Positions 2,642-63,747 of a stretch of 64,000 bases of DNA are shown piece after piece. The number at the start of each line of letters is the position of its first letter. Within the stretch, counting starts at the first letter, position 1. The stretch comes from Marchantia polymorpha subsp. ruderalis (lineage: Eukaryota; Streptophyta; Marchantiopsida; Marchantiales; Marchantiaceae), in the NCBI GenBank assembly GCA_037833965.1, contig AP031358.1, positions 5,836,001 to 5,900,000 of the forward strand, read 5' to 3'. Made by a program: the position numbers and the translations under genes. The notes below the pieces were generated by a model that was not told the origin of the DNA, made no database searches, and saw only the letters and a program-made list of their open reading frames with translations.

Positions 2642-5600
2642 ATGGCGAGCAGGGGGGCGGGCTCGCTGGGCAGGGCTGCGTCGCGCTTCGTGGGATTGCT
2701 GAACTCGAGGGCCGCCGCTTGCCAGGTGAGGCTCGTCAGGTGAGCACCAGCCAGATGTTGGTGTCGAATCGTGCGCGCGAGGGACGAGTGCGCGACTTGA
2801 GATTCGCGGTCGAGTTGAGTCGAGTCGGGACGGGGTGGGGCGGGGCGATCGACTGGTTCGTTTGATGTTTGTTGGGTGATGCGGGATTGATTGCCCGAGC
2901 GACGGTCTTTTTTGAGATTGCGATCTGCCGGGTGGGATTAGCTTGCTGGGATTTGGATTCCTGTTCTTTCTCCGGGCGTCATTGTTGGTTTCGCGAGGAT
3001 CTGCTTTCCGATGTAGTCTGCTCCGCTTTTCGGAATTCAAGGAGTGATTCACGCGCCCCTCTCGCAGTATTGCCAGTTGTCCGAACCTCGTCTTTGTGTC
3101 CTCCGTTGACCTAGTTTTGATTGTCGTTGTGTTCTCCTGCGTTCGGTGCTCACGGTGGACGATTTCACTTGTGCTCACCTCCACTCTCTTGAATTCCGAC
3201 ACGCATGTAGCTTCACGGTGAGGAATCGTATGTGTGACTGTCTGGCTGCTCATACTATCTGGCCCACAGATTTAGGGAATTTCGCTGATGGGGGCAAGAA
3301 ACCACTGCTGGCCGTTATCAATCAGGTCGAAATAGACGGGGTTGGAAAAAGTTAGTGATGCCCGTCTCAAGAAAGTCTAGTTTGTCAAATTATGGACTTG
3401 TGTGTATTTTCTGTTGCCGATAGCTGTTCTGTTTTCTTAGTATTCTTATCACTATGCACGGGTTCTGACTTCCGTGGATGTTGTGGACTTGTTGCCCTTT
3501 CAGCCCGATTGTGTAAATAGTGGCCTTGAGATTTTGAAGTTATTTTAAATGTTTAATCAAAATTTTTCGTTCAAAGGAAAGCTAAGAAATTATATTCAAC
3601 AAGGTGTCGAGTTACATTCTGTTGCAGTGAGCAGATTCACATCTTGTGAACTCTTCAAACAGTATTCAGTTGTCCATCTGAATAGCAGATTGAGGATCTA
3701 GCTGACCGAAAGGGTGGATTTCTCATCGGACCCATGATCTGTTATCGCTTCCGGTTTCCGGTTTCAGCTTGAGAACACATGGAAATGTTTATTTTTTTTT
3801 GGGGTCTCAGGGAAAACCTTTTAGTGCTGTCGAACACATTTCGGACCGAGGTCACTGTAATACTCGAATTGACGGCTGGTATGAGTAATGTGACATAAGG
3901 CGGTTCTTAGTTTTTGAATTGTTTTGAATGGCCTTAAAAGCATGTCCCGCATCTGCTAATCTAACTGTTGCGCCCAGCCTTGGTTCCACAGTCTTGCCTC
4001 GTGTTTGTTAGTCGTGTGTTAGATCGGGTTACATTTCTGAACGTTGGAAATATGGGATGTGGAGAATCATGAGGTTATAGAATTACGTGCATGAGCTGGT
4101 TATACTTCACTGATAGTCCCAAGTAGCTGAAGATCACATTACCTGCTGTTGTTGGTGCATGCTTGTGAGAAATGCTTTGCCACTTCAGGCGGGACCATCC
4201 ATCTGTAGTAAATGCACTGTAGTAATGTGAGCTAAACCCGTGTGTGGACAGCCAAACCCAGCAGTTCAGGCTTTGGCGGCGAAGGAAGGAAACACGGAAA
4301 GGGAGAGCACGGCAAGCAAAGTTGGAAGAGCTGCAGCTCTAGTTGGGGCAGGAGTCACCGGTCTTTTGGGATTCACCGGTGTAGTTTACGCTGATGAGGC
4401 AGAGCACGGACTCGCTTCACCAGATTACCCATGGCCCCACAACGGCATCATGAGCTCCTACGACCATGCCTCGTAAGGACCGGACTGAATGTTACTATCT
4501 TTTGAGCCAGGTTGCAGTTGTTTTCACATGTATTCTGTAGACGATTTTACCATACTAGCAATAACGAGTGAAGCCACGTCTAGAGGATAAATATGTAGAT
4601 TATCCTATGAATTGGTTGGTAAGAATGGGTGCAACCATTTGTTAATCAAATCGGTCGATGTGGCAGAATTCGCCGTGGTCATCAGGTATATCAGCAGGTT
4701 TGTGCAGCATGCCACAGTATGTCCTTGGTCGCATACCGTGATTTGATTGGTGTAGCATACACGGAGGATGAGGTTAAGTGCTTGGCTGCCGAAATCGAAG
4801 TAGAGGATGGACCCAACGATGAGGGTGAGATGTTCCAACGCCCTGGGAAGCCCAGTGACCACTTCCAAAAGCCCTATGCCAACGAGAACGCAGCACGATT
4901 TGCGAATGGTGGTGCATACCCCCCAGACTTGAGTTTGATCACGAAGGTACATTTCACACTCATAATTCTTGTGGTTCTCTGTCTCTAATCATGTGTTCAG
5001 AGGCAAATGTCTACAAAAAGTCCAAAACTGAGAGAGATGGGTTTGCTAATCATCAGTAAGTGAGGATGTTCACGATTTTTCTCGAAGGAATATAAAATAA
5101 CTCAGGGCATCAGGACATTAGTACTGTACGCCACAGTTAGGGGTCAATTTTGCTGCAAGGCTGACTGGTACATAACTCCCTTCAGGCTGTCTCCTGACTC
5201 GAATTAGGTTGTCATTTACGTATCTGTTTAAATGTGTCCTTACGGGGTCCGATAAACAGAGGCATGAATGAAATCACATGAACACTTTTTTTTGGTTTTA
5301 TTTCGAGGGATGTTGCTGTTCAGTGAGTATTGTTGTATTGAAGCTTTTTATAAAATCATTGAGGATTCCGTCTCTGTGACGTATGCAGGCCCGTCACAAC
5401 GGTCAAAACTACGTTTTTGCCTTACTGACTGGATACCGTGAGCCTCCAGCGGGAGTCTCTGTAAGTCATTTCACTCTGCTGGTTCAAGTTTTTATTCTAC
5501 TGTGCTATTGCATCAACTTTGGTACTTACCACTGTCGGGGAGCATCGTTCTTGGTTTTCTTCTGCCATTTTCTAGTTTGTCATTTTCTGACTGCGTCGTA

Positions 5601-19061: not shown

Positions 19062-19134
19062 GGGGATGTAGCTCAGATGGTAGAGCGCTCGCTTAGCATG
19101 CGAGAGGCACGGGGATCGATACCCCGCATCTCCA
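19062..19134 (+). tRNA. tRNA-Ala (anticodon AGC)
   Basis: The 73 bases fold as a complete cloverleaf. The acceptor stem is GGGGATG/CATCTCC with one G-T pair, and the D arm is GCTC..GAGC. The anticodon stem is CTCGC/GCGAG with loop TTAGCAT (anticodon AGC). The T stem is CGGGG/CCCCG with loop ATCGATA, and the discriminator base is A. The internal A box (TAGCTCAGATGG) and B box (GGATCGATACC) for RNA polymerase III are intact. There is no intron and no encoded CCA, as expected for a nuclear tRNA gene. A T-rich stretch follows the gene. Confidence 0.95.
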
Positions 19135-19736: not shown

Positions 19737-20024
19737 ATGAATGTGGTTAGGAATTTACTCAAGCTTCAAATGAATTTCCAATTGGATTCGAGAAATTTAC
19801 GACTGCTGATGAATGTGGTTAGAATGTTACTCAAGCTTCAAATGAATTTCCAATTGGATTCGAGAGATTTACGACTGCTGATGAATGTGGTTAGAATGTT
19901 ACTCAAGCTTCAAATGAATTTCCAATTGGATTCGAGAGATTTACGACTGCTGATGAATGTGGTTAGAATGTTACTCAAGCTTCAAATGAATTTCCGATCG
20001 GATTCGAGAAATGTACAACTGCTG
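19737..20024 (+). repeat. 72-bp minisatellite, four copies, in frame
   Basis: Four head-to-tail copies of a 72-bp unit start at 19737, 19809, 19881 and 19953. Copies 2 and 3 are nearly identical, while copies 1 and 4 carry several changes. The unit is a multiple of three and contains no stop in one plus-strand frame, which runs 19662-20189 (175 codons). That frame gives a repeated 24-residue Leu-rich unit containing NVVRMLLKLQMNF. Whether it is translated is unknown: no promoter is evident and no homologue is recognised. Confidence 0.85.
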
Positions 20025-20189
20025 ACCTTACGTCGACCAATGCAACACGTAGAGCTTTCATGTTGCCATCGAATCGGGCAGGGGGATCTCGAGTGTCGTA
20101 TGCGGATGCGTCACGGGCTCGACACACAGAGGGCCAGATCTGCCGTCTGCATGAGGTCGCTCGCGAGGGTCGGTCCCATGCAGGTGTGA

Positions 20190-42799: not shown

Positions 42800-43830
42800 G
42801 TTACTTTCCATTATAAGTTCCAATAAGCTATTTGTGTTTACTAAAGGTAACATCAATATAGAAAATTTAACAATTTTTCCGTGAATATCAATTAAAGATG
42901 ATTGTTATTTGGATCTTTTTTTCCTAATGATTCTTCAACTAATCTCGATATAAAAGCTCATCAAGTTTTTATGAATATTTGAATCGAAATTCATGAAAAA
43001 AACATTATTATGTATTTTCACTATAAACCAAGGACGAGGAGTTAAGTTTGTGCGACTTCAAGTTTGTGTGCTCACCCCATTTGAAAACAATTGTAGCCAA
43101 ATACTCTCATGTTGCTCGCAACATGTTTCTTGTCATTTTATGTCATGCTCGTGATCATTTGAAAGGCCTAAACTTTCTTTTTAAATAGAACTCGAATATA
43201 TATATCTCAAGGTGACAATAAAAATTTAAGATTACAATTAAAAATTATAAAAAATTAATATTAGATGTCAGTTTTCAGACATAAAGACTTAAAAAATAGA
43301 GGTTTAGTTATAAAGATACCTAGCTTCTTTACCGTGATGTAACATTATTTACTATTCAGCATAGAAGAAGAGAACAAAACAGCACCATAAATCCCAAATT
43401 TCTTTTTTTCTAAATTCTTACAGCTCTTAGTGATCAATCTAGAATTTTCCACTAAAATATCAATACTGATATAAAATATCATTGATTTACATTCGTTAAT
43501 CTTACTTATACGAATCTTCCCCATGGATTTTCTAACATAGAGAACGAAGTATGTGTGGCTCACGCTTTGAAATACACAAGAGATTTATGCCTCAAAATTT
43601 TCCTAATCAATGATGAGTCAGTACATTTTAATGTGTTGTTTTCTGTAAACCATATGGAATTATTCCAATACTCTGACTCGTGTGTCATGTTTGGGAAACA
43701 TTCTTTTATAAGAAATAAATAAATATTGTGCACAGACTTTTGACTTTTGGATAAATCCTGATGGTAATGATCATAAATTATTTTCAGCCAGGACGTGCAT
43801 TTTGTAGAATAAACTAATGAATTAGTTACT
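42800..43830 (+). repeat. Tandem unit copy 1, upstream part of the promoter block
   Basis: The sequence aligns along most of its length with 60085-60777, for example at AGTGATCAATCTAGAATTTT and GATTTTCTAACATAGA. It continues at 48701 after a 4865-bp insertion. A partial copy lies at 51790-51920. Minus-strand frames here that cross into the insertion are not genes. Confidence 0.85.
43826..43830 (+). repeat. Left target-site duplication TTACT of element 1
   Basis: TTACT at 43826-43830 is repeated at 48696-48700, on either side of element 1. The uninterrupted sister sequence near 60780 aligns through this point with no insertion. Confidence 0.8.
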
Positions 43831-44812
43831 TGTAATAACCCACCAAAGGCTAAAACTGCAGTATGGTGGTAAAAAGATCTAACCCACAGGGACAGAGGCA
43901 ACACACAGAGTAAAAGTGTCACGTTTAACAGACTTTTGTAGAGTTTGAATTCTAGGCGACTGTCACTCCCAGAAATACTGCAGTGCTCGACTCGGAGGAG
44001 GATCTCGACTCGGAGGATGCTCGGAGGATGCACGGTACAGCGTGGTCACTCAACACACACACACACACACACACATGAAAACTGGCAAAAGCACAACTCG
44101 GAGGTCGGTCAGGACCTCCGCTTCGGATTTCAGGAGGAAAGTGTCTCAAAAGTTCACTCAGAGGTTCTGCAGGTAGTGACTCCCACTCCGGCTTTTACTG
44201 CCCTCCCGCCAGGAACTAGCGTAGGGTACCCGGACTGGACTTCCCACTTCGGAACGAAGCCTCTTCATACGCCGTGGACGTCACCCTCGACTCTCACACC
44301 AAACGCAGGGAGTGCAGGCCCGACTGAAAACTTGACTGAGACCCAATCCAATAACACACACACACACAACCTGAATTGCAAACCAAGGCTTACACGAAGT
44401 AATAAAACTTCACTTTGGCATTCAGGGGAAACTTCCCGTAGGAGTACAATCAGGATATGTCACTCGAAGGAGTAAGGGGGAACTGTTCAAGTCTCTAACT
44501 CGCAGCCGGCTCTGAGCATCAGAAATCACCCGCAGGTGCAGATCCGCACTACTCAAGTCTCTAACCGGGTGCTAGCTCTGAACATTCAGCCGAAGGCCTT
44601 CAACTACAACATACGGTAACTTCGCTATGCTGCAGCTTCTCTACGTGGTGCCAGGACCAAAATGCACAAACACGCCAAGAAAGTGAGTTCCTGATCTGTA
44701 CTTCCGAAACTGGAAGAGTCCCAAGGCAAAACGCCTTGATCTACTTTATACCCTCAAAGGTCCTAACTAGCACTACGCTATCCTATCTACTACTCGCAAC
44801 ATCTGCGCGAAA

Positions 44813-47338
44813 CTAAACTATACTACTGCACTCGGCGGATCCGGTGCTGCGCCTCCTGCGCGCCGGACTGCTCCGCTCGCTGTCTCTACCTTGCCAGTCT
44901 TCCGACCGGCTGCGCAACCCCAGGCGTCGGAGGGCTGCAGTGACTTTCAACTCTAAGTGCGCCATAGTGTCGCGCGCACCCGACAAGAAGGTTTCTAATT
45001 TCCTCGCTACTCGCCGCCGACTCCGACTGTCACCCTCCGTCAATGCCGCCGCCCGAAGCTCGAACTCCCTGAGTGTGATCCTCTCTTGAGCTGCCACCTC
45101 CCAATGGGCGTATCCTTTTAGACAGTGAGTCACCCGCGTCGCCAACTCTTCTCGCGCCCGGCAGCTGCCTTCCACCTCTGCCAGCTGCATTTCTGCTTCC
45201 GCACGCTGCGCCCTCAAATCCGAGCACTCGGATTGCAAGTTGCGCAACAACTCCTCATCCTCCTTGCGGCCTCTTTGACTTTCTTCTAAGGCGCGCGTCT
45301 GGCGCGCAAGCTCGGCTGCTAGGATGCGGTTTTGTCTCCGCTCTTCCTGCAATTCCGACTCGATCTTTGCCCGCATTAGCTCGGCATCCGCCTGGCTTTT
45401 CGTCGCCGCATCCTCCCTCTGCTGCTGCAAGGCTTGGTATAGCTTCTGTGTGACCGCCAGGTGTTGTCGGAGGGCGGTGTTCCTCTCCTGATATACGTGG
45501 CACCTAGAGGCCCAAGTGGCCACCTTGCTCCTCGTCCTGCGCTTGACAGTCTCCACATAAGACTGCGGTTTTCCAATACCCGAGTACTTGGATGTCTTGC
45601 GATCCAGATATCGCAGGAGTGGGACTATCTGCTCGCACAACACCCCTGTTGGCGTTTTCTGCACAGAATCCGCTTCCTGCTCTTCCGAGCTCGTCTCATC
45701 CTCAGTCTCGAGGATTTCAGTCGCCACTGAATCCCTTGGCGACTCCATGGAACTGTGGCGCGCAGCAGCTTCCGCTGCGACTGCTGCTCCACTGCCTGCT
45801 AAAATATCTTGGGCAGTGGGGGATCCCACTGCTTGAGCCCCTGTTCCGGCTCGATCTTCGGTCTCCGAAGGAGTCGATGCCGCAGTGACTCTTGTCACCT
45901 TTGCACCGCCCGCTTCTGCTGCCTGCCCTTCCGGCGCAATCTGCGCGGAAGGTGTCTTCGCTGAAGGTGCGTCCGCCGAAGGCGTCCGCACACTGGTCGC
46001 CGGCCCTGTCCGTCTCGCAGTCGGCGAATCCGGCCGACTCTTTGTTGACCGACTCGCAGTCGGCCGACCAGCAGTTGTCCGACTGGGAGTCGGATACACC
46101 CTGCGCGTCTTCACTCCACTTGGCCTGCTTGCTGGTGGCGTTTTCCCAGAAGTGCCTTCCGCCGAAGACGACCTTCTAAGGGTTGTTGGCTCGTCAGCCA
46201 AACTCTCTTCTGCTTCCGGCCTGCTGTCCGGTTCAACGCGCCGTTCAGTTGGCCTTCCTTCCGCTTGTCGACCTTCAGTCGCCCGACTCGTAGTCGGCTG
46301 ACTGTCAGTCTGTCCATCTCCTTCCGAAGGCATTGGTGCCTTCTGCGCAGAGGTATTTGTCGACTTCCCTAGAATCTGCGCGATTATCTCCTCCTGCGTG
46401 GGATTCCGCCGGAGCGGAGTACGCCCGGTCTCCTCAGTACTAGTTGGCATTTTGCGTGCCCTCTGTTTTGGTCGACTGTGATGCTCGTGGGTGGGCCGAC
46501 CACGAGTCGGCGCAGCTGGCACTTCCGGCTGCCTGTCCTCAGGTCTCTCATCCCACTTCCGCTTTCGCGGAATGCGCTCACTTCGACGTTCTTCTGCTGC
46601 TCTTGCTGGGGCCGGAGCCGGAGGCGGACTGGCAGGTTCCTCGTCCGGATCCGTGTCTACTTCGGCCTCCCGTGAGTATCTACCTGGATAGCTCTGTGTC
46701 AGCAGCGGAAACCGTGTCCGCTCTGAATTTGTCAAACATCCCATCGCCCGATAAAACACAATCAGGTAAGGCGAAAGATGATTGAGGGTTCCTCCTCTCT
46801 CTTCTTGCGCATGTTGGCGCGTCACCTTCCACAGGAGCCGTGCCCAATGCACTGGAGCTCCTGACAACACTAGCTCCACAAATTCTACCTGCCAACCATG
46901 CATGTAAGCGGTCTTGGTCGGCTGCAATATCTGCAGCAATGCAGTCGCGACATTTCTCCGCAATCGATCTTTGTAATCCTGTGTCCGGAAACCGTTCTTG
47001 GGATGCCTGGCAACTTTGAAGAGCTCATTGTAGGAGATTTCTTCCTCCTGGGACACCTTCACGCTATCGGCCTCGAAGAGGAGATCCCCTTCCTCGCCGG
47101 CACACCTGCCCAACACCTGCGCCCAGTTACAAATGTCCCATCTTTCTGGATGTGGACGGAATCCGCGTGAGGGCTTGTGTCTCTCCTGCAGATACTCGCG
47201 CACCATCTCCGGACATGTCCAGTTCCACCCCCACAGGAGGAAATCGAGCTTCAGCCCCAGCATCACATCTTGAAATGCGCGTAGACCGATCTGCGGCACC
47301 CTGAGGGGAGACACTCGCAGCTGGGGAACCTTTGACAT
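44813..47338 (-). CDS. Element-encoded protein, 841 aa: N-terminal globular part, Pro/Ser/Arg linker, C-terminal coiled coil
   Basis: The frame is open from 47626, but the first ATG is at 47338 (MSKVPQLRVSPLRVP), so that start is chosen. Residues 1 to about 215 look folded, with Trp-rich stretches such as DFLLWGWNWTCPEMV and YNELFKVARHPKNG. About 220-560 is low complexity, rich in Pro, Ser, Thr, Ala and Arg with loose RPT/SRP repeats. About 610-780 is a heptad-rich coiled coil (LQEERRQNRILAAELARQTR, RAQRAEAEMQLAEVEGS). The tail is basic and Ser-rich. No reverse transcriptase, integrase, protease or CCHC knuckle is present. The design is loosely gag-like or like the accessory proteins of some plant elements. 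The N-terminal part may relate to plant transposon-associated domains, but I cannot name the family. The ORF lies wholly inside the insertion, so it belongs to the element, and its openness suggests a recent insertion. Confidence 0.7.
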   Translation of the reverse strand: MSKVPQLRVSPLRVPQIGLRAFQDVMLGLKLDFLLWGWNWTCPEMVREYLQERHKPSRGFRPHPERWDICNWAQVLGRCAGEEGDLLFEADSVKVSQEEEISYNELFKVARHPKNGFRTQDYKDRLRRNVATALLQILQPTKTAYMHGWQVEFVELVLSGAPVHWARLLWKVTRQHAQEERGGTLNHLSPYLIVFYRAMGCLTNSERTRFPLLTQSYPGRYSREAEVDTDPDEEPASPPPAPAPARAAEERRSERIPRKRKWDERPEDRQPEVPAAPTRGRPTHEHHSRPKQRARKMPTSTEETGRTPLRRNPTQEEIIAQILGKSTNTSAQKAPMPSEGDGQTDSQPTTSRATEGRQAEGRPTERRVEPDSRPEAEESLADEPTTLRRSSSAEGTSGKTPPASRPSGVKTRRVYPTPSRTTAGRPTASRSTKSRPDSPTARRTGPATSVRTPSADAPSAKTPSAQIAPEGQAAEAGGAKVTRVTAASTPSETEDRAGTGAQAVGSPTAQDILAGSGAAVAAEAAARHSSMESPRDSVATEILETEDETSSEEQEADSVQKTPTGVLCEQIVPLLRYLDRKTSKYSGIGKPQSYVETVKRRTRSKVATWASRCHVYQERNTALRQHLAVTQKLYQALQQQREDAATKSQADAELMRAKIESELQEERRQNRILAAELARQTRALEESQRGRKEDEELLRNLQSECSDLRAQRAEAEMQLAEVEGSCRAREELATRVTHCLKGYAHWEVAAQERITLREFELRAAALTEGDSRSRRRVARKLETFLSGARDTMAHLELKVTAALRRLGLRSRSEDWQGRDSERSSPARRRRSTGSAECSSIV

Positions 47339-47649
47339 TGCGTTTCCTGCACACACAAACGTTCTCCCTTTCGCTCGCTCTCTCACAATCGCCACTGCGC
47401 GTCGGCCGCTCAAGCACTGACTGCTCACTCTCTCTTCGCTCACGCTCAAGTTCGCTACTCGCAATTCTCTCCAAGGTCTGTCAAGATCCTTGCGCAACTC
47501 GTCTCCGCACTCTCTCCTCTCACTGCAGGTCTCTCCGCCCTTGCGCGTAATCTTGGAAGCTTGAAATCGCAGAATCAAGAATGAGAGAATGAGACTGGAG
47601 CGCAGTCTTTTCTTCTCCGAATTCAAGAACGTCCAACGTTCTTACTGGT

Positions 47650-48560
47650 TACAACGTACGCAACCGGCTATACGGCCTAACGGTTCGCCCTTTGCATGCG
47701 CGAACTCACGTCTCCGCACTGCGCGCATTCGCATGCGTGAATGTTGAATTCTCCCGCCGCCGCCTTCCGGACTCGAGTCCGCCACAGGGTATACGTCGGC
47801 TATGTTGTCTTTCCCTAACCCGTCCATCACCGGAGGCGTGTCGCCGCTGGCGTGTTCCTTATCCATCGGCGCCTTGCTGGAGGCGCACATCCAGTCGGCG
47901 CGAATTACGCCGGCGCGTATTCGTACCGCTTATTTTGTCCTTTATGCCTCGTCCATTGCTGACGGCGCATATCCGCCAGCGCAAATCATGCCAGCGCATC
48001 CGGCCATCAGCGCCACGTCGGAGGCGTACATCTGACCGGCGCTTTCCTTCCATGAGCAGCCGCCAAAGGCGCTTCCGACTCTGAGTTGGTTTCCTCCCAT
48101 GAGCGCGCGATTCCGCCGAAGGCGCATCGCCGAGGGCGTACGGGAGTCCTTTCCGGCTGTGAACCCTAGCGCGAACGGCGCATGTCCGGCTACGAGTTTT
48201 CCGACGCTCATAACTTCTCCGTCCCTGATCCATCTCCGACGCTCTTGGGCTCGTTAGAACGAGCGTCCCGAGCTCTTTCTAATGCAACTTCAACCAACTG
48301 GATCTACCGTGTATTCCGATCGTTATGAAGGTTTTCCCTTTCCGCGCTAGCGGCGCATCGCCGAAGGCGCACTCATGGTCGGACGACTTCAGAGGTCCGG
48401 GCCCTTCTTCTGACGTTTTTAGCAAAACCTCCTCCTGAGGTGTCTGCGCCGGAAGCGTAGCTTCCTTATACGCTGGAAGCGCGTGAGTAGAGACACCTCA
48501 GAAAAGGTGCTTTTGCCGAAGGCGCCGAAGACATTGGCGTTGGTACATCCGACTACGCGA
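47650..48560. repeat. GC-rich zone of GGCGCA / CGCCGAAGGCG motifs inside element 1
   Basis: About 900 bp upstream of the element ORF is densely populated with short related motifs (CGCCGAAGGCGCA, GCCGGCGCG, GGCGCATC), many of them palindromic. The composition is much more G+C-rich than the host DNA on either side. Open frames here on both strands are compositional. A promoter-proximal or CpG-rich regulatory role for the element ORF is conceivable. Confidence 0.55.
48243..48266. repeat. 24-bp palindromic block shared with element 2 (copy 1)
   Basis: A 24-bp block containing GGGCTCGTTAGAACGAGC is identical to 59159-59182 in element 2. Its core GCTCGTT-AG-AACGAGC is a perfect 7-2-7 palindrome. 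About 40-50 bp upstream both elements also share CGAC[GA]CTCATAACT. Confidence 0.8.
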
Positions 48561-48700
48561 TTCTTCGTGACCTCGTGACGATCTCATTAATCCACTCTAT
48601 TTAACGTACCCTTTTCTAACTACAAACACTGCTTCGGTACTAGTTTTCTAAAATTGTTTAAATTCTGCAAAAAAAACAAAAAGTGTATTACCACATTACT

Positions 48701-49500
48701 TTTTATATTCAAATGCCAATAACTTGGATACGGAAACAAAGAATGAAACTTTGTGCTTTTTCCAAGAAATTCCACTGAATATATTTCCCGAACACAACGG
48801 TCTAATACCATATTCTCTTGGCTTATATAAGATATGGTTCCATATATATATAAGGCCCTCTTTGCCCATACTCAGCTCCCACCTCAAGTATCTTGTTTTT
48901 TCACGATACAATAAAACTATCCAACGTGAAACTCGATAGAAAACTCGAGCAAAATTCCGACTGACTTAACATTATATCAACGCATAATGTAGTCATTTCG
49001 AATTATACAGATATAGAACTGTAGTATTTGAATCGAAAATTTTACCATTCAAACAACGCACTTGAAGTGCACCTCCGTACAAAACCGATCGGAAAGAAAA
49101 ATCAGCAGCCGACTAACGTTAAGAAAACGGTCCCAATTGGAAGTGATAGTTACAACCGTAATTATGTTCTCCTTCTTTTGGGAATGATTGTTAAGAGTAC
49201 TAAAATTGTGAATTTTGGGTTACAGTCCGAGTCGTTTGGGATCGTCAGGCTGCTGCGGAATTAATTACAAACTCATTAAACATACTTCCTGTACAGGAAT
49301 TGAGGCGAGCAAGGGATTATAGATCGAGGCCACTCCGACCGAACCGAACCGAGTAACACGACGCAACTGCGTACGCAGCGCGTGCACAACGGTACCTGGA
49401 TGAGGTCGCGCACTTACGCGGTAGGTCGGGCCTTGTCGGGTACTCCGGCGCTCGACGAGAATGAAGCCCACGTTCTATTCTTCGTTCGTTCGCACCTCAT
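48701..49500 (+). repeat. Tandem unit copy 1, downstream part of the promoter block
   Basis: Continues the alignment with 60778-61560 and 51920-52600 after the element 1 insertion. It contains the TATA box (48847-48855), a long leader with several upstream ATG-stop pairs, and the first recognisable coding exon of copy 1. Confidence 0.85.
48847..48855 (+). promoter_or_regulatory. TATA box of tandem gene copy 1
   Basis: TATATAAGG is followed by a conserved initiator-like CCCATACTCAGCTCCCACC. The same arrangement is present in copies 2 and 3. It would give a leader of more than 500 bases before the coding exons. Confidence 0.6.
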
Positions 49501-50340
49501 TTCGAGGTGGAGATCGACGTCGCCGAGCTTGTGCATCGCACGCATAATTCTTGTTACGCTTGGGCTGATACGATGCAGTCTGTCAAAGGCAAAGAGGAGG
49601 AGGACGAGGCTACTGCGGCCATGCAGTTTGCCCATGAGGAGACCGATGCGATGCAGTCCGTCCAAGAGGACTGAGATGCATGGTCTGTGGAGGCGGAAGC
49701 TGGAAGCATGCAGGCTCTGGAGAAGGGAGCTGATCAAGAGATCAAGTGTGACGAAGAGGGTGCACCGTCGAAGCAGCACGGGGATGAGGTCGCGGACGAG
49801 GTACATGGCTCAATGCAGTGTAGGGAGGAAGTGGTGGCCGTCCCGGAGCCGAAGATCCATTGGATTGAGAATCTCGAGTTCCGGGAGTATTTTGCTGCTC
49901 TGGAGTCGTGTCCAGTCACGAAGCTCCAAGTTATCCATGAATCGATATCAAAAGGGCCTCATTTGGTGCTCCGGATCCGTAGCCAGCGAGCTGAGGAGAT
50001 CGAGGTGACGATCTTCGCGACAGCTAGCCTTTCAATATACGTAGCAGTCGACGGGCGTACCCTCGGGGACTTGTACAAACTCTCATACTGGCTGCAAAGC
50101 TCGGGGGCAGTGTTTCCCTTGGAGGTCGCTGTGTTCGACGCCATGGAGGTGAGAGGATTCTTGGATCGGGTTCGTGGTCGACACATGTGGGCTGCAAGAG
50201 TTCAGCTGCAGCTACGGCGCCAGGATAGTGTCATTACTATCGGGGACTTCGTGTCCTCCACCGCTCATGGTTTATGGCCTGGAGAAATCATGTACAAATC
50301 TGGTTATATTGACGAAAAAAACCCGCTCCCCGCTTTCTGA
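49387..50340 (+). pseudogene. Tandem gene copy 1: broken member of the unrecognised family
   Basis: Aligned with copies 2 and 3, this copy has two defects. The splice acceptor before the main exon reads TTCGCAC instead of an AG end (near 49495), and a TGA at 49672-49674 replaces the TGC of the QEDCDAW motif. The frame downstream stays open for about 217 codons (from about 49687) and holds the whole conserved C-terminal domain, from VPEPKIHWIENLEF to YIDEKNPLPAF. A shorter protein from an internal ATG such as the one at AGSMQALEK could still be made. It carries only one, diverged, copy of the acidic repeat that is expanded in copy 2. The TATA box and leader are intact, but about 150 bp upstream of that TATA lies the element 1 insertion. 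Confidence 0.65.
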
Positions 50341-51014
50341 TTGTCCTGAGAGGTTACATGATCATTGGGACCGTCATAACGCTTGGCCATCGAACTCATA
50401 CATGTTCATGATGTACGTTCGATCTCATGGTTTAGTCGAGGAAAGTGAATGCCTTTCGGTGATGCTCATGCTCATAATCTTGCTCCTTATTCAGAATCTC
50501 AAGTTGCATGGCGAGTATGTAGTGAAATTGCGTTATGTACACATGACTACGAGCAAGGGTGAGTCCACTTTGTAACCTCATCCGAGAAGACAACGCTGTA
50601 CATCGAGTACTTTTTACGTTTTGTTTTCTCCGTTAAATTACCGGACGAGTTTCCAATTTTACTTTAATTGTTATCGCTTTGTGCTGATGGAATGTCACGA
50701 TGTGTTAAATTACTCACATAGTAATAACCTGAAAAGTAGGTTTTTATTTCTGCTAACAGATGTAATACCTGAAATCTCCTCGCTATATAAAGGAAGCACT
50801 GCTCTAAGTCTAAATGTCGCTAATATTATTAAGTTCCGACGCATTCTATTATGAAAACCACATGAACCTATAACCGTTATAAAAGTTTTTCACAAGTCCA
50901 AATACCTCGACCATAATATAAAGCTCTTGGTTGTTCAGTTATTATCCAAGTAGACATAAATTTGAGAACTCATGAAGATGGAGATCTGTTGTTGAAGTCA
51001 GGAAATTCATCTTA
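50341..51014 (+). repeat. Tandem unit copy 1, downstream block
   Basis: This block aligns with 53688-54240 and 62447-63127. It keeps a second open frame past the gene stop and an AGGGTGAGT donor-like site near 50559. Part of it (50890-51014) is shared with copy 3 but missing from copy 2. Confidence 0.75.
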
Positions 51015-51026
51015 GCGATAGCTTAA

Positions 51027-51785
51027 CGCCTGCCCATCAAGAGTGTGATCACTAGTCTTTGCATCATCTTTTATATCTTAACCTTGGGCAAGACCAATCA
51101 GAATCGCACTATGTGTCTTTACTTTTTATCTTAATCCGAAAATCTCGAGTCACCAATCTCCAGACTCACATTGTAACAAATCGAGATTTGCAACAAGATA
51201 ATGGTCACTATGTTGGTCTCAGTAGATTCTCTTCGAGTTGGCTTTTCTTCATAAACGGTAATCAGCAAATGTTCACCAATAAGCAGTGTTCAAAATATTG
51301 TAGGACACAAATATATTGCAGCTTTTTTTTAGAAAATTTGCTACAAAATGGATGTGTATCTTGTATGGATCAATATTTTTGAGAAGATTAAAGATGTTCA
51401 TAGGAACGGAGACTGAGTACAACCGACGGAATGATCAAAGGCAATGCGATGATTGAATATCATTCTCTATCTTTTGAAATGATAAGATATGAATGTGGAA
51501 AATATGTTCGATAAGATCCAAGGAGTCTTTTTTCAGCATCTACAACTTTAAAACAAAGAGATTTCAAAGTCTCTAAAACTTGAAGTAAGCTTCTAAGAAA
51601 GCATGTCATTAAATAGCAATGCAGTGACACTCACCTGTGCACATAAGGTCTTAGAATTCAGCAACTCCTGCAAAATCTTTTTGCATCAAAAAATGTTACA
51701 ATTATAAATAGCCTCCCCTCAGTCCAGCTCTTGCTCGATTCTCCTCTTGCACCGTGGATCGATATTAAAACATGGATGAATCGTG
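51027..51785 (+). repeat. Linker block E, copy 1
   Basis: Repeated at 57300-58059, starting at CGCCTGCCCATCAAGAGTGT. Each copy holds a plus-strand frame of about 107-126 codons that shares FSSSWLF and NGNQQ. The frames differ by many replacement changes and indels, so they are probably remnants of a coding sequence rather than genes. Confidence 0.8.
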
Positions 51786-51962
51786 ACGTCGATGACATAC
51801 CATAGGGTAAAATGATAGGTGATAGGTTCCAGTAATCTATTTGTGTTATCTAATGGTTCCATCAATATCTTAAATTTAACAACTTTTAACAATTTACTGT
51901 TATTTGGATAATGGACGGTCACATACCATATTCTCTTGCTTTTTATAATATATAGTTCCATG

Positions 51963-51971
51963 TATATAAGG
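51963..51971 (+). promoter_or_regulatory. TATA box of tandem gene copy 2
   Basis: TATATAAGG with the conserved CATACTAAGCTCCCACC downstream. This copy lacks much of the sequence further upstream that copies 1 and 3 share, because the block is deleted from about 51920. Confidence 0.6.
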
Positions 51972-52529
51972 CTCTCTTCGCCCATACTAAGCTCCCACCT
52001 CAAATCTCTTGCTTTTACGATACCGCTAAAAGTATGTAACGTAAAATTAGATAGAATTTCTATAAATTCTATTATCGAGCAAAATTCTGACTGACTTAAT
52101 ATTATATCAAAGCATAATGTAGTCATTTCTAATTATACAGATATAGAACTGTGATATTTGAATCCAGAATTTTTCCGTTCAAACAGCGCAGTTGATTTGC
52201 ACCTCCATACAAAACCGATCGGAAACAAAATTCAGCAACCGACTAACCTGAAGAAAACGGTCCCAATTTGAAGTGATAGTTACAACCGTAAATATGTTCT
52301 TCTTCTTTTGGGAATTGTTAAGAGTACTAAAATTGTGAATTTTGAGCTACAGTCCGAGTCGTTTGGGATCGTCAGGCTGCTGCGAAATTAATTACAAAGT
52401 CACTCAAAACATACTTCCTGTACAATGTGGGAGGCGAGCAAGGGGATTATAGCTCGAGCCCACTCCGACCGAACCGAACGTAGTAACACGAAGTAACTGC
52501 GTACGCAGAGTGGACGACGTGTACCTGGA

Positions 52530-53687
52530 TGAGGTCGCGAACTTACGCGGTAGGTCGGGCCTTGTCGGGTACTCCGGCGCTCGACGAGAACGAATCCCAC
52601 GTTCTATTCTTCGTTCGTAGCTCATTTCGAGGTGGAGATCGACGTCGCCGAGCTTTTGCATCGCACGCATTATCCTTCTTACGCTTGGGCTGATACGATG
52701 CAGTCTGTCAAAGAGAAACAGGAGGTGTACGAGGTTGCTGCGGCCATGCAGTTTGCCCATGAGCAGACCGATGCGATGCAGTCCGTCCAAGAGGACTGCG
52801 ATGCATGGTCTGTGGAGGCGGAAGCTGGTGGCATGCAGGCTCTGGAGAAGGGAGCTGATCAAGAGATCAAGTGTGACGAAGAGGGTGCACCGTCGAAGCA
52901 GCCCTGGGTAGAGGTAGAGGACGAGGAACATATTTCAATCAAGTGCGGGGAGGAAGTGGTGGCTGACGAGGTCGAGGACGAGGAACATATTTCAATTAAG
53001 TGCGGGGAGGAAGTGGTGGCCGAGGTCGAGGATGAGGAACATATTTCAATTAAGTGCGGGGAGGAAGTGGTGGCCGAGTTCGAGGACGACGAACATATTT
53101 CAATAAAGTGCGGAGAGAAAGTGGTGGCCGACGAGGTCGAGGACGAAGAACATATTTCAATTAAGTGCGGGGAGGAAGTGGTGGCCGTCCCGGAGCCGAA
53201 GATCCATTGGATTGAGAATCTCGAGTTCCGGGAGTATTTTGCTGCTCTGGAGTCGTGTCAAGTCACGAAGCTCCAAATTATCCATGAGTCGATAACAAAA
53301 GGGCCTCATTTGGCGCTCTGGATTCGTAGCCAGCAAGCTGAGGAGATCGAGGTGACGATCTTCGGGACAGCTAGCGATACCATATACGTAGAAGTCGACG
53401 GGCGTACATTCGGGGACTTGGACAAATTCTCATACTGGCTGCAAACCTCGGGGGCAATTTTTCCCTTGGAGGTCGCTTTGTTCGACGCCATGGAGGTGAG
53501 AGGATTTTTGGATCGGGTTCGTGATCGACACATGTGGGCTGCAAGAGTTCAGCTGCAGCTACGGCGCCAGGATAGTGTCATTACTATCGGGGACTTTGTG
53601 TCCTCCACCGCTCATGGTTCATGGCCCGGAGAAATTTTGTACAAATCTGGTTATATTGACGAAAAAAACCCGCTCCCCGCTTTCTGA
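52530..53687 (+). CDS. Tandem gene copy 2: unrecognised protein with expanded acidic repeat
   Basis: The main exon starts after the TTCGTTCGTAG acceptor at about 52620 and ends at TGA 53685-53687. A short preceding exon (ending YLDEVANLR, donor GCG|GTAGGT at about 52547) fits in phase and in all copies. The true start codon was not found; the first in-frame Met of the main exon is in TMQSV. Roughly 350 residues can be read. They contain an acidic N-terminal part with MQ repeats, then five tandem units of about 17-19 residues (EDEEHISIKCGEEVVA type) at 52910-53185 where copies 1 and 3 have one. A conserved C-terminal domain of about 175 residues follows (VPEPKIHW..., FREYFAALES, DAMEVRGFLDRVRDRHMWAA, NPLPAF). 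Function, family and cell location are unknown; no signal peptide or membrane segment is seen. Confidence 0.6.
52910..53185 (+). repeat. In-frame 51-57-bp tandem repeat in gene copy 2 (five units)
   Basis: Five head-to-tail units share GAACATATTTCAAT and AAGTGCGGGGAGGAAGTGGT. Each unit is a multiple of three bases, so the frame is kept and every unit has one Cys. Units differ in length by DE insertions and in a few substitutions. Confidence 0.9.
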
Positions 53688-54240
53688 TTGTCCTGAGAGG
53701 TTACACGATCATTGGGACCGTGACAACGCTTGGCCATCGAACTCATACATGTTCATGGTGTACGTTCGATCTCATGGTTTAGTCGAGGAAAGTGAAAGCC
53801 TTTCGGTGATGCACATGCTCATAATCAGTTCCTCAGTCAGAATCTCAAGTTGCATGACGGGCATGTAGTGAAATTGCGTTATGTAAACATGACTACGAGC
53901 AAGGGTGAGTCCACTTTGTAACCTCATCCGAGGAGCCAACGCTGTACATCAAGTACTTTTTACGTTTTGTTTTTCTCCGTCATATTACCGAAAGACTTTT
54001 CAAATTTCCTTTAATTGTTATCGATTTGTGCTTGAAGAATGTCATGATGAGTTAAATTACTCACATTGTAATAACTTGAAAAGTAGGTTTTTTTTCTGCT
54101 TACAGATGTAATATCTGAAATCTCCTCGCTAATATGAAGGAAGCATTGCTATAAGTCTATATGTCGCTAAAATTATTAAGTTCCGACGCATTCTCGTATG
54201 AATAACCACATGAACCTATAACAGTAATAAAATTTCATAA
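53688..54240 (+). repeat. Tandem unit copy 2, downstream block
   Basis: Aligns with 50341-50880 and 62447-62995. It includes the conserved open frame past the gene stop and a GGGTGAGT donor-like site near 53909. Confidence 0.75.
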
Positions 54241-54290
54241 TTCACAAGGTATGCTTGAGCAACATACCTCGTGAGCAAGTCGTATATCTT

Positions 54291-54737
54291 CATGCATGAA
54301 CTCTTTACCAGGCTGCTCGAGGTTTCTTGTGACTTCCAGCTCGCAAGCAAACATCAAAGGTTAGTCTACCATTGAGCGACCGAGGTATCTGGTTTCCGCA
54401 TGAGAACCATTTGTGATGGTGATCGACAAGAACTTCTACACAGCCAACCGGTAGCAATAACACGCCGCTACCGACGGCAGCCCAAACTCCAAGCATCGTT
54501 GAACGACCAATTGGTGCTGGCTGGACTGAAGCATTCGCAAGATCGTGCAAAGCATGGCCTTTGCTTCATGAAACGGATTACACAAGTCCAACGGCCAGCT
54601 CTTGATGGCATTCGGTTTCGAATCACGAGCTGGGATTCATGCCATTCGAATCTGCAACGGCAGACCTGCAGCTTAGTCGTTGCTTCTGATGGAAATCTCG
54701 GCAAATGCTGCAGATTGTGACGAGGCCGAGTCAAGCA
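54291..54737. repeat. Block F, copy 1
   Basis: About 447 bp repeated at 63301-63747 in the same orientation, each just downstream of a tandem gene copy. Frames are open on both strands in both copies (for example minus 54305-54550, with IGRSTMLGVWAAV). The substitution pattern includes many amino-acid changes, so coding potential is doubtful; it may be a decayed exon. Confidence 0.8.
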
Positions 54738-55680: not shown

Positions 55681-56575
55681 ATCATCAGGATCTCGGCCAA
55701 TCTCCCACCACGAATATAGTTATCGTTACCTTGGAACCGTGAGTATCGTTGCACGCGTGTCCGAGATCGGTTCCAAGGTAACCGATCTCGGACACGCGTG
55801 CAACGATACTCACGCCCTGGATATGTGTCCAAAATTATATTCAATAGTATTGATAGTATTGATTGATATCTGATTGGGGATGAATTCCAAGGCTTGACCG
55901 ACAATCCCATGTAGTTCAATATCGGACGGCGAGACTCTCGGTAACCATCGATCATAGTTTCTAGTAACTCAACATGGATTCAAATCGATCTGAGCGCACG
56001 ACCCAACACCCGCATAAAACGTTCTCTGCACCACGACATCAAACCTTGTTACAAACTTGGACCTGGAAAACCGCTTATGTTAATGTCACAAAATCATAAA
56101 AACATCCGAAGAGACTTCTTCCTTTGTAAGATGTAGTTCTATCAACCAGGCAGGTCTAATTATGTTTTATATTCAGTAGGACCATGACCACATTTCATCT
56201 CCACATTATCTGCACTTTGATAGCAGTGACTGAGTTTAGAAGCGGTTTTCCAGGTCCGAGTTTGTCACCAGGTATGATGTCAGAGGTGCAGAGAGTGTTC
56301 TATGAGGGTCTTGGGCCCTCCGCTCAAACTAATTTGAGCCCATGTTGAATGTCTAGGAACCATTACCGAGGGTCTCGCCGTTGATCCCATATTGCAGTAC
56401 ATGGGAATATTGGTCAAGCTATAGAACTCATCCCAAGTTGGAGGCTGTAATTATAATGCGATGGAGATTTTAGTCACATATAATAGGCATGAGTATCGTC
56501 GCACGAGAGTCCAAGTTGAATACCAAGTGAACGATAATATATTCCTCGTGCGAGATTGGCCGAGGTCCTGATGAT
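55681..56575. mobile_element. Foldback element with long terminal inverted repeats
   Basis: Left arm 55681-56076 and right arm 56240-56575 are diverged inverted copies. Landmarks pair in reverse order: ATCATCAGGA/TCCTGATGAT at the ends, GAGATTGGCCGAG, CTTGACC, CCTCGGTAA, and ACCTGGAAAACCGCTT/AAGCGGTTTTCCAGGT innermost. The arms are separated by about 163 bp. The left arm is longer because of an internal 34-bp-arm palindrome. There is no coding capacity and no target duplication could be fixed. It fits a MITE or foldback transposon. Confidence 0.75.
55739..55813. other. Perfect 34-bp-arm palindrome with 7-nt loop
   Basis: Left arm 55739-55772 starts GTGAGTATCGTTGCACGCGT. Its exact reverse complement is 55780-55813, with loop CCAAGGT. 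Just upstream, GTTACCTTGGAACC (about 55726-55738) is the complement of the loop region, so an alternative fold exists. The perfect arms contrast with the diverged arms of the surrounding foldback element, so this duplication is younger. Confidence 0.9.
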
Positions 56576-60084: not shown

Positions 60085-61485
60085 TTGGGTAAAATGAAAC
60101 GTGATAGGTCCCAGCTATTTGTGTTAATTAATGATCTCATCAATATCTATAATTTAACATTTTTATTATGAATATTTATCAAAAGTTACGGTTATTTGAA
60201 TATTATTTTCCCAAAGATTCTTCAACTAATTTTGATAGAAAGGCTCATCAAGGTCTTATGAGTATTTGAATCGATATTCATTGTTAAATATGACATAATA
60301 ATGTTTTTTTATTGTAAACCAAGTACAAGGAATGAAGTTTGTGCCACTTTCTGCGACCAAAATTTCTTCTTTTCTTGATTTTTACAGCTATTAGTGATCA
60401 ATCTAGAATTTTCCACTAAAATTTTAATACTAATATAAAACTCATTGATCTACATTAGTTATCTTACTTATACAAATCTTCCTCATGGATTTTCTAACAT
60501 AGAAAATGAAGTATGTGTGGCTCGCGCTTTGAAATACAGAAGAGATTCATGCCTCAAAATTTTCCCAATCAATGATGAGTCAATACATTTAAAATGCGTT
60601 TTTTTCTGTAAACCATATGAGATTATTCCACTACTCTGACTCGTGTGTAATGTTTGGAAACATTCTTTTATAAGAAATAAATAAATTTTGTGCACAGAAT
60701 TTTGACTTTTGGATAAATCCTGATGTTAATAATCATAAATTATTTTCAGCTAGGACGTGCATCTTGTAAAAAAAAAACTAATGAATTATTGAGTTTTTAT
60801 ACTCAAAAGCCAATAATGTGGATACGAAACAAAGAATGAAACTTTGTGCTTGTTCCAAGAAATTCCTTTGAATAAATTTCCCTAACACAACGTTCAAGTA
60901 CAATATTCTCTTGCTTTCTATAATATATGGTTGCATATATAAGGCACTCTTCGCCCGTACTCAGCTCCCACCTCAAATATCTTGTTATTTCACGATAACG
61001 ATAAAAAGATTTAACGTGAAACTCGATAGAATTTCCAGAAGTTCTATCATCGAGCAAATTTCTGACTGACTTAATATCATATCAACGCATAATGTAGTCA
61101 TTTCTAATTATAAAGATGTAGAACTGTAGTATTTGAATCGAAAATTTTACCGTTCAAACAGCGCACTTGAACTGCAGCTCCGTACAAAACCGATCGGAAA
61201 CAAAATTCAGCAGCACACTAACGTGAACAAATCGGTCCCAATTTGAAGTGATTGTTACAAACGTAATTATGTTCTCCTTCTTTTGGGAATGATTGTTAAC
61301 AGTACTAAAATTGTGAATTTTGAGTTACAGTCCGAGTGGTTTGCGATCGTCAGGCTGCTGAGGAGTTAATTACAAACTCACTCAAAACATACTTTCTGTA
61401 GAATATTTGAGGCGACGAAGGGATTATAGCTCGAGCCCACTCCGACCGAACTGAACCGAGTAACACGAAACAACTGCGTACGCAG
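60085..61485 (+). repeat. Tandem unit copy 3, promoter block
   Basis: This is the uninterrupted version of the block split by element 1 in copy 1. It begins GGGTAAAATGAAACGTGATAG and runs through the TATA box into the leader. It is the reference for defining the element 1 insertion site. Confidence 0.85.
60936..60944 (+). promoter_or_regulatory. TATA box of tandem gene copy 3
   Basis: TATATAAGG followed by CGTACTCAGCTCCCACC, as in copies 1 and 2. Confidence 0.6.
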
Positions 61486-62446
61486 CGCGTGCACAACCGA
61501 ACCTGGATGAGGTCGCGCACTTACGCGGTAGGTCGGGCCGTGTCGGGTACTATGTCGCTCGACGAGAATGAAGTTTCATTCTATTCTTCGTTCGTTCGCA
61601 GCTCGTTTGGAGGTGGAGGTCAACGTCGCCGAGCTTTTGCATCGCACGCATAATTTTTGTTACGCTTGGACTCATACGATGCAGTCTGTCAATGACAAAG
61701 AGGAGGAGGACGATGCTGATGCGGCCATGCAGTTTGAGCTTGAGGAGACTGATGGGATGCAGTCCGTCCAAGAGGACTGCGATGCATGGTCTGTGGAGGC
61801 GGAAGCTGGTGGCATGCAGGCTCTGGAGAAGGGAGCTGATCAAGAGATCAAGTCTGACAAAGAGGGTGCACCGTCGAAGCAGCCCGGGGACGAGGTCAAG
61901 GACGAGGAACACATTCCAATTAAGTGCCGGGAAGAAGTGGTGGCCGTCCCGGAGCCGAAGATCCATCTGATTGACAATCTTGAGTTCCGGGAGTATTTTG
62001 CTGCTCTGGAGTCGTGTCCAGTCACGAAGCTCCAAATTTTCCTGGAATCGAAAGCAAAAGGGCCTCATTTGGTGCTCCGGATCCGTAGCCAGCGAGCTGA
62101 GGAGATCGAGGTGACGATCTTCGGGACAGCTCACCTGCCCATACACGTATCAGTTGACGGGAGTACCCTCTTGGACTTGGACAAACTCTCATACTGGCTG
62201 CGAAGCTCTGGGGCTGAAATTCCCTTGGAGGTCGCTGTGTTCGACGCCATGGAGGTGAAAGGATTCTTGGATCGGGTTCGTGATCGACACATGTGGGCTG
62301 CAAGAGTTCAGCTGCAGCTACGGCGCCAGGATAGTGTCATTACTATCGGGGACTTCGTGTCCTCCACCGCTCATGGTTTATGGCCCGGAGAAATCATGTA
62401 CAAATCTGGTTATATTGACGAAAAAAACCCGCTCCCCACTTTCTGA
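61486..62446 (+). CDS. Tandem gene copy 3: unrecognised protein, apparently intact
   Basis: The main exon runs from 61602 (acceptor TTCGCAG) to TGA at 62444-62446. A preceding 42-bp exon, 61486-61527 (acceptor TACGCAG, donor GCG|GTAGGT), keeps the frame and gives AQPNLDEVAHLRARLEVEV at the join. No initiator ATG was found upstream; a further 5' exon, or a start at the internal Met of TMQSV, must be assumed. About 295 residues can be read. The N-terminal half is acidic with repeated MQSV/MQF motifs, then one acidic unit (KDEEHIPIKCREEVVA), then the family domain from VPEPKIHL to NPLPTF. There is no signal peptide, membrane span or catalytic motif. It is the best candidate for the functional member. 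Confidence 0.6.
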
Positions 62447-63300
62447 TTGTCATGAGAGGTTACACGATCATTATGACCGTGACAACGCTTGGCCATCGAA
62501 CTCATACATGTTCATGGTCTGCGTCCGATCTCATTGTTTAGTTGAGGAAAGTGAATGCCTTTCGGTGATGCATATGCTAGTAATCTAGCTCAGTCAGAAT
62601 CTCAAGTTGCATGACGAGTATGTAGTGAAATTGCATTATGAATACATGAATACGAGCAACGGTTAGTCCATTTTGTAACCTCATCCGAGAAGGCAACGCT
62701 GTACATCAAGTAGTTTTTACGTTTTGTTTTTCTCCGTCATAGTACCGAACGACTTTTCAAATTTCCTTTAATTGTTATCGATTTGTGCTTGAGGAATGTC
62801 ACGATGTGTTAAATTACTCACATTTTAATAACTTAGGTAAAGTAAATTAGGTTTATATTCTGCTTACAGATGTAATACCTGAAATCTCCTCTCTAATATG
62901 AAGGAAGCATTGCTTTGAGTCTAAATGTCGCAAATACTATTAAGTTCTGACGCATTCTATTATGAATACCACATGAACCTATAACAGTAATAAAATTTTG
63001 TCACAAGTCCAAATACCTCGACCATAATATAAAGCTCTTGGTTGTTCAGTTATTATCCAAGTAGACATAAATTGGAGAACTCATGAAGATGGAGATCTGT
63101 TGTTGAAGTCAGAAAATTCATCTTATGCTTGTGCTTGGCAAGGTTTGTGTCGTTAAGAGAACATTCATATTTTGGTGTCACAATTCATATAGTCGTCTCT
63201 TCTCCTTAGTATTTCAGGTAAGTTTTTATCCCTGGAAAAATTGTACTAAATGGAAGTAAATATTAATTCTAGCTGTGTCTCTTATTCAGAAGGTATACTT
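62447..63300 (+). repeat. Tandem unit copy 3, downstream block
   Basis: Aligns with 50341-51014 in copy 1 and the first part with copy 2. The donor-like site seen in copies 1 and 2 is altered here (CGGTTAGT near 62661). Confidence 0.75.
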
Positions 63301-63747
63301 CATGGATGCACTCTTTACCAGGCAGCTCGAGATTTCTTATGACTTCCAGCTCGCAAGCAAACATCAAAGGTTAGTCTACCATTGAACGACCGAGTTATGT
63401 GGTTCCCATATGACAATAATTTGTGATTGTGATCGATAGTAACTTCTACACAGCCAACCGGTAGCAATAACACGCCGCTACGGACGGCAGCCCAAACTCC
63501 AAACATCGTTGAACGACCAATTGATGCTGGCTGCACTGAAGCATTCGCAAGATTGTGCAAAGCATGGCACTTGGTTCATGGAACGGATCACACAAGTCCA
63601 ACGGCCAGCTCTCGACCGAATTCGGTTTCGAATCACGAGCTGGGATTCATGCCATTCTAATCTGCAACGGCAGACCTGCAGCTCGGTCGTTGCTTCTGAG
63701 GGAAATCTCGACAAATGCTGCAGATTGTGACGAGGCCGAGTCAAGCA
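63301..63747. repeat. Block F, copy 2
   Basis: Second copy of 54291-54737, downstream of gene copy 3. The similarity stops sharply at TCAAGCA; sequence after 63747 is unique. Confidence 0.8.

Follow-up and report, generated by a model that had tools for sequence, protein, structure and literature searches.

An 841-codon open reading frame within the long terminal repeat of an abundant Ty3/gypsy family in Marchantia polymorpha

The DNA analyzed here is a 64,000-nucleotide stretch of Marchantia polymorpha subsp. ruderalis (GenBank assembly GCA_037833965.1, contig AP031358.1, forward-strand positions 5,836,001 to 5,900,000), referred to below as the window. At 43831..48695 it contains a 4,865-bp insertion, oriented along the minus strand, which is assigned below to a solo long terminal repeat (LTR) of a Ty3/gypsy element. 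The insertion is flanked by TTACT at 43826..43830 and 48696..48700, as a target-site duplication (TSD). On the plus strand, the left copy of TTACT is followed by TGTAATAACCC, and GTATTACCACA is followed by the right copy; the minus-strand reading of the LTR runs from TGTGGTAATACAC to GGTTATTACA. In a self-match of the window, the surroundings recur as a segmental duplicate with ~90% identity (43393-43824 corresponds to 60357-60788, and 48700-51014 to 60794-63125). This duplicate holds a paralogous empty site at 60784..60798, in which a single target copy with diverged bases lies near 60789-60793, the alignment being judged by eye. No internal direct repeats were seen in the insertion by self-comparison, and the element matched only once within the window. 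The original prediction, made from the sequence letters, had described TG..CA ends with the TTACT duplication, an empty sister site, and the lack of internal direct terminal repeats and of polymerase genes. The boundary reading and the self-comparison bore out the first three, the Pfam scan detected no polymerase domain in the open reading frame (ORF) described next, and the empty site could be placed at the position given above.

The insertion carries a single long ORF on the minus strand at 44816..47338 (stop codon at 44813-44815), which occupies LTR positions 1358-3880 and thus begins 1.36 kb into the LTR. Between its two stops the open frame comprises 942 codons, or 841 when counted from the first ATG, a start that was placed by conservation and is common to relatives; the intact 841-codon minus-strand ORF of the original prediction was therefore confirmed. 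A TATA box (TATAAA, minus strand, 44745..44750, LTR position 3946) is located 62 bp past the ORF stop. Ten of the 11 aligned LTR copies have it at the corresponding position, and a counterpart, GGTATAAAGTAG, was found 980 bp from the LTR end in a diverged relative. Because this box is conserved 62 bp after the stop codon, the genomic RNA is expected to start past the ORF, with the U3/R boundary just downstream of the box, and the ORF presumably lies wholly in U3. The presumed R-U5 part would then be the remaining ~0.9 kb (43831..44720, minus strand), as judged from the TATA position. This agrees with the minus-strand TATA box near 44750 and the U3/R-U5 split that had been proposed. A second, TATA-like box (TAAATA, minus strand, 48598..48603, LTR position 93) is a candidate promoter of the U3 gene, and a similar motif, TTTAAATAGAGTG, was observed at about the corresponding position in a diverged relative from contig C5. 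The ORF was open over its full length in eight (L022, L023, L027, L028, L032, L034, L036, and L037) of the 20 loci L020-L039, a set picked by similarity to the window's left end. The window ORF was likewise open, as were those in the two LTRs of a full-length C6 copy (one of these LTRs being L028, already counted among the eight) and in the LTR that served as the target of that copy.

Copies of the insertion were searched for in the one genome available, consisting of nine contigs (241 Mb). The 300-bp left and right ends gave 1,238 and 1,410 first-look candidate matches, respectively; the best 40 scored matches for each end showed 94-100% and 98-100% identity and were jointly distributed over all nine contigs. 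Among 15 examined copies reaching both ends, 11 were flanked by a 5-bp duplication, one of them with a 1-base shift. Since the same end recurs thousands of times and 11 of 15 copies carry the duplication, a chance origin of the insertion is excluded. Three of the other four copies (L028, L033, and L037) adjoin a primer site or a polypurine tract on one side. The fourth, L020 on contig C3, is a complete LTR copy with unmatched flanking 5-mers (GACCT and GCTGC), as recombination between different insertions would leave.

In several copies, one flank was instead shared precisely from the LTR boundary outward. In the LTR orientation, the 3′ flank of L002, L029, L035, L037, and L040 consists of TAAGGAGCCGACAACTTCTTTT followed by TGGCGCCGCTGCCGGGGA, and the same flank with small changes was detected in a diverged relative within L020. 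The shared 3′ flank extends over 42 nt in L037 and ~77 nt in L029 and L035, which are near-identical to each other, and that of L002 continues into the gag start of L040. On the 5′ side, L015, L028, and L033 share TTGAGGAGGGGGGCA, with the end of an integrase frame before it. These shared flanks are a primer-binding site (PBS) and a polypurine tract (PPT), and the element is therefore in minus-strand orientation in the window.

The full-length copy is located at C6:20038220-20053737 (covered by L028, L040, and L041). Its two LTRs are identical at 4,864 of 4,864 bp, which indicates a very recent insertion, and are ~92% identical to the LTR in the window. They enclose 5.79 kb, with a CTCCC duplication on both sides, and the whole copy sits inside another LTR of the same family. 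The PPT TTGAGGAGGGGGGCA adjoins the 3′ LTR, and the PBS TGGCGCCGCTGCCGGGGA is positioned 22 nt inside the 5′ LTR end. The original prediction had stated that a paired full-length element would show the 4.87-kb sequence twice around gag-pol, and this copy shows exactly that, together with the PPT, the PBS, and a TSD. Internal frame 1 comprises 942 codons and contains Retrotrans_gag and zf-CCHC above the Pfam cut-offs, with aspartyl-protease models scoring just under them. Internal frame 2 comprises 946 codons and contains RVT_1, two RNase H models, H2C2, and rve above the cut-offs. A single in-frame TAG (L040:2962-2964) separates gag-protease (PR) from reverse transcriptase (RT)-RNase H (RH)-integrase (IN), and its position between two parts in the same frame suggests stop-codon read-through. 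The element of ~15.5 kb is thus laid out as a 4.86-kb LTR, a 22-nt spacer, PBS, gag-PR, TAG, RT-RH-IN, PPT, and a second 4.86-kb LTR.

This layout, with gag followed by PR-RT-RH-IN, is the Ty3/gypsy hallmark, and the class was set by domain order. The three best matches to pol were Riccia sorocarpa proteins with 67-71% identity. Pfam scanning of the C6 copy found no chromodomain after the integrase, as would mark a chromovirus, and no additional RNase H (e.g., PF13456 or PF00075), as would mark the Tat/Ogre/Retand group, the latter being looked for by Pfam scan only. Large retrotransposon derivatives (LARDs) are devoid of gag-pol; in contrast, gag-pol coding sequence is present in the liverwort family, which separates it from LARDs and from terminal-repeat retrotransposons in miniature (TRIMs). 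Athila elements use a tRNA-Asp primer and have no additional RNase H, and the PBS and the lack of a further RNase H in the C6 copy agree with Athila as a candidate group; PF03078 (Athila ORF-1), which part of the Athila elements carry, was absent from the Pfam scans.

The complement of the PBS without CCA is the exact end of 29 genomic 23-mers, which we take to be the 3′ ends of tRNA-Asp genes, and the PBS is accordingly described as tRNA-Asp-like. The 22-nt offset of the PBS from the LTR end was observed at L040:5821-5890 and in L002, L029, L035, and L037, as well as in the diverged relative within L020, and the 3′ LTR lacks the 22-nt spacer at its outer end. Ordinary tRNA priming would put these 22 nt on the U5 end of the cDNA, so either trimming before or during integration or another primer would be needed. 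With regard to self-priming, no complementarity of 9 bases or more was found between the window LTR and the spacer/PBS, and only two 8-mers were detected.

The abundance of the family was estimated by pattern counts with a tolerance of at most 2 mismatches. These gave 6,423 occurrences of the LTR 3′ end and 1,387 of the LTR-PBS junction in the genome, counts that can take in related families; the reversed-pattern controls both gave 0. If the junction count is complete and each junction marks a two-LTR element, roughly 3,600 LTR ends are solo or truncated. Among 96 listed LTR ends on contig C1, six LTR pairs were spaced 10,641-10,669 bp apart vs 10,654 bp expected, each with a PBS junction at the 5′ LTR when the position lists were matched by eye. 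Three of the six fall within a tandem duplication, leaving approximately four independent insertions. Around 2.22-3.13 Mb of the same contig, LTR positions recur at offsets of 393,464 and 366,081 bp (nine and seven matches among 74 plus-strand places), reflecting either a large three-copy tandem duplication on this 5.6-Mb contig or an assembly effect. A count of 222 full-length LTR elements is given for M. polymorpha ruderalis in the part of PMC9985172 drawn on here. The gap between 222 and 1,387 could stem from differences in assembly, in criteria, or in LTR-length limits, any one of which might account for it, and a junction is not equal to a full-length element.

ORF-related frames with ~30-66% identity were scattered through the fetched loci, and LTR ends were found together with such diverged frames at two of them. 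On contig C3, a match reaching residue 838 (in pieces of 46-56% identity) stops 1,038 bp before the LTR 3′ end, compared with 994 bp in the window, and this LTR end is followed by the spacer and the PBS. A second, nested copy there (43% identical) stops 1,036 bp before its own LTR end. On contig C5, a match with 66% and 61% identity in its first two pieces begins 1,353 bp after the LTR 5′ end, compared with 1,357 bp in the window; no PPT was found before this LTR end. As shown at these two loci, the ORF appears to occupy the same place in the LTR in relatives that are ~44-66% identical in protein.

Selection on the ORF was evaluated by the ratio of nonsynonymous to synonymous substitution rates (dN/dS) in 45 pairs among 10 intact ORFs (those of the eight loci, the window, and L041; L040 was used in place of L028, whose LTR is identical). 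The pooled ratio was 0.313. By part, it was 0.145 for residues 1-230, 0.455 for the linker, and 0.339 for the C-terminal coil part, whereas the 101 codons upstream of the Met gave 0.568. Single pairs ranged from 0.188 to 0.623, with the closest pair the highest. Differences by codon position were then taken from 11 LTR copies, in three of which (L031, L033, and L039) the ORF is broken. In the N-terminal part, the differences at positions 1, 2, and 3 were 0.022, 0.021, and 0.082, respectively, and 0.014, 0.016, and 0.070 after dropping all columns in which at least one copy has a CpG or CHG site. The non-coding LTR without such columns gave 0.032 on the 5′ side and 0.019 on the 3′ side, and may itself be constrained. 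The threefold periodicity survives the CpG/CHG removal and is the firm part of the selection evidence. Judged from these sequence comparisons, the ORF is under purifying selection.

The N-terminal part of the predicted protein was the most conserved, and is followed by a low-complexity middle part of A, P, T, R, S, and E; charged and small residues are abundant in the linker and the C-terminal part. The linker contains a basic stretch, PRKRKW, which we assume to be nuclear-signal-like. A coiled-coil signal was modest, being reached by 8 of 500 shuffles for residues 655-740 and 32 of 500 for residues 601-840. AlphaFold models of the N-terminal part from 22 and 44 sequences both had a mean predicted local distance difference test score (pLDDT) of ~50, and the part was predicted with low confidence to be helical. 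Regarding the globular-linker-coiled-coil layout suggested previously, the linker was thus supported and the coiled coil modestly so, but the globular part was not. Pfam scans of the ORF gave no match to gag, env, superantigen, or eORF domains (PF03078, PF04195, and PF10536). A likeness to PF20167 (Transposase_32) was not supported: there was no profile match and the hhalign value of 14.5 to one partial member was below those of at least five of 30 shuffled decoys. Protein searches gave 15 matches in one case and 42 in another, and every named match in both came from Marchantia polymorpha. Thirty-seven of the 42 are named, all as Marchantia polymorpha hypothetical proteins, and five are unnamed; coverage of the ORF is <60% in 37 of the 42, as fragments of a repeat would show. 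These matches suggest that such hypothetical proteins may be copies of the ORF misfiled as host genes. No named homologue from Riccia sorocarpa was found despite its presence in the database, which is weak evidence because the search depends on 5-residue words in common and its scoring covered only 7,991 candidates. An accessory retrotransposition factor seems the most likely product.

Taken together, it is highly probable that the insertion is a solo LTR of an abundant Marchantia Ty3/gypsy element whose LTR contains a selected ORF, very probably in U3. The C6 copy and the C1 pairs support this reading, which the original prediction had favored. The window element would have been left by LTR-LTR recombination. 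Genomic RNA would start just past the TATA box, so that the ORF in U3 would be copied into both LTRs at each reverse transcription. The box at LTR position 93 would drive the ORF's own transcript, and the gene could then outlive the deletion of gag-pol and persist in solo LTRs. The protein may act as an accessory retrotransposition or anti-silencing factor, the least certain step of this scheme. The ORF is likely to have started out as an accessory frame situated between pol and the 3′ LTR, an arrangement known from other plant Ty3/gypsy elements. It would have become part of the LTR when the PPT came to lie upstream of it; no intermediate for such a shift was found.

Several points weigh against this reading. 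The evidence is the sequence of one genome, and base-by-base reading covered one full-length copy. The eight intact ORFs in 20 loci do not represent a family-wide share. The dN/dS values were obtained from intact ORFs exclusively, and on their own could overstate the constraint on the ORF. Positions 1 and 2 of the N-terminal codons changed only slightly more slowly than the 3′ non-coding LTR, and the third positions changed faster than any non-coding part of the LTR, which is not fully explained. At the C3 and C5 loci the diverged frames are interrupted and one LTR end is seen at each, and no LTR ends of their own were recognized for the other diverged frames in the fetched DNA. No Pfam family matched the ORF or its relatives above the cut-off, and a PDB fold search returned nothing with an E value below 2 and no usable fold. 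Finally, the simplest priming scheme does not explain the 22-nt offset of the PBS.

The other explanations differ in what they make of the same observations. That most copies seen have exact ends with 5-bp TSDs and reach no internal region in common would also be expected of a non-autonomous single-gene element that has its own non-LTR ends and is mobilized in trans by an LTR-type integrase, and by eye the two ends do have a short imperfect inverted resemblance, the only one seen. However, a gag-pol element has this sequence as its two LTRs, which do not differ at any of 4,864 bp and are accompanied by a PBS and a PPT, and the LTR-PBS junction is found at 1,387 places. The LTR pair flanking gag-pol rules out such an element as the origin of the family, and the new non-autonomous class offered as an alternative in the original prediction is not needed; we consider this explanation extremely improbable. 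The ORF could instead be a passenger, either a captured host gene or an old insertion into the LTR, with no role in the element and with constraint left from a past host function. The lack of any homologue of known function and of a Pfam match fits a passenger, yet constraint is visible among the element copies themselves, the ORF holds the same LTR position in relatives with ~44-66% protein identity, and the 37 of 42 matches with <60% coverage resemble repeat fragments, all 37 named ones being from Marchantia polymorpha. A passenger is therefore improbable.

A further question is whether the product would be envelope-like or structural (gag-like) rather than regulatory. Sense-oriented accessory ORFs after pol in plants are often called env-like, as the consulted part of PMC7264820 describes, and the N-terminal part of the liverwort protein is predicted, with low confidence, to be helical. 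On the other hand, there was no Pfam gag or env match, no obvious transmembrane stretch was noticed when the sequence was read by eye, and the composition of the linker and C-terminal part, with many charged and small residues, also speaks against it. We regard an envelope- or gag-like product as rather unlikely, though a real candidate.

The reading of a selected gene within the LTR has partial parallels in known systems. LTRs have been called "ordinarily non-coding," and in mouse mammary tumor virus (MMTV) the sag gene lies mostly in U3; 490 of 527 short-listed sag contigs were without other retroviral genes, and most sag copies were solo LTRs (PMC4667437, in the portion used). The sag gene of MMTV and related betaretroviruses and the liverwort ORF are alike, as far as that portion goes, in being protein genes present in both LTRs and surviving in solo LTRs, and presumably also in their U3 location. 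Unlike sag, which belongs to an animal retrovirus, the liverwort ORF lies whole inside a 4.9-kb Ty3/gypsy LTR, and it has no Pfam match to a superantigen or any other family. In plant CRM elements, according to the sections of PMC3059260 and PMC3605345 consulted, the gag-pol frame extends into the 3′ LTR, so that these are likewise plant Ty3/gypsy elements with coding sequence in an LTR. However, it is the tail of gag-pol (CR motif) that enters the CRM 3′ LTR, whereas the liverwort pol ends before the PPT and the ORF is separate and complete. Plant accessory ORFs (aORF/eORF) are in sense orientation in Athila and Bagy2 and antisense in Grande, RIRE2, and Retand (PMC7264820 and PMC6317226, in excerpt), and the role of the sense ORFs called env-like is disputed (PMC7264820, in excerpt). 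On these accounts, the liverwort ORF resembles accessory ORFs in lying downstream of pol, in being conserved across copies, and in its sense orientation, as in Athila and Bagy2, but they are in the internal region between pol and the 3′ LTR and it is within the LTR. For non-chromoviruses, the text of PMC6317226 used here gives LTRs of up to ~5 kb, tRNA-Asp among the primer sites, and 5-bp TSDs for most elements. The LTR length is similar, but the LTRs of those elements are not described as coding in that text, and its main text contains no mention of Marchantia. A plant LTR with a separate whole gene was not found in the literature searched, whose coverage left out subscription journals and preprints. 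By comparison with these systems, the separate whole gene in a plant LTR appears to be what is new, while the Ty3/gypsy type is known, the animal retrovirus parallel is good, and the CRM parallel is partial.

LTRs are usually regarded as regulatory and non-coding, and here a liverwort family with thousands of LTR copies would have a large selected gene there. Solo LTRs then become readable as possible genes, and an annotation program that caps LTR length at less than 4.9 kb would overlook the family or list its ORF among the host genes. As a plant counterpart to the animal U3 gene sag, the ORF would make gene entry into LTRs comparable across kingdoms. More speculatively, the LTR could be a self-contained, self-dispersing gene with its own promoter at about LTR position 93. 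Even after the loss of gag-pol, thousands of solo LTRs would then supply the U3 protein in trans, and it would act on the LTR DNA or RNA that they have in common (for example, in anti-silencing) and keep the family mobile. We hold this to be doubtful; if true, a solo LTR would be a functional life stage and not a scar.

Other features of the window were also noted. Beside the insertion, at 48700-54737 and 60794-63747, a unit of 1-2.3 kb recurs in approximately three diverged copies (87-92%). A near-perfect 77-bp palindrome is located at 55738-55814, and short tandem repeats occur at 19737-20025 (unit of ~72 bp) and 52911-53187 (unit of ~55 bp). A tRNA-Ala gene is present at 19062-19134.

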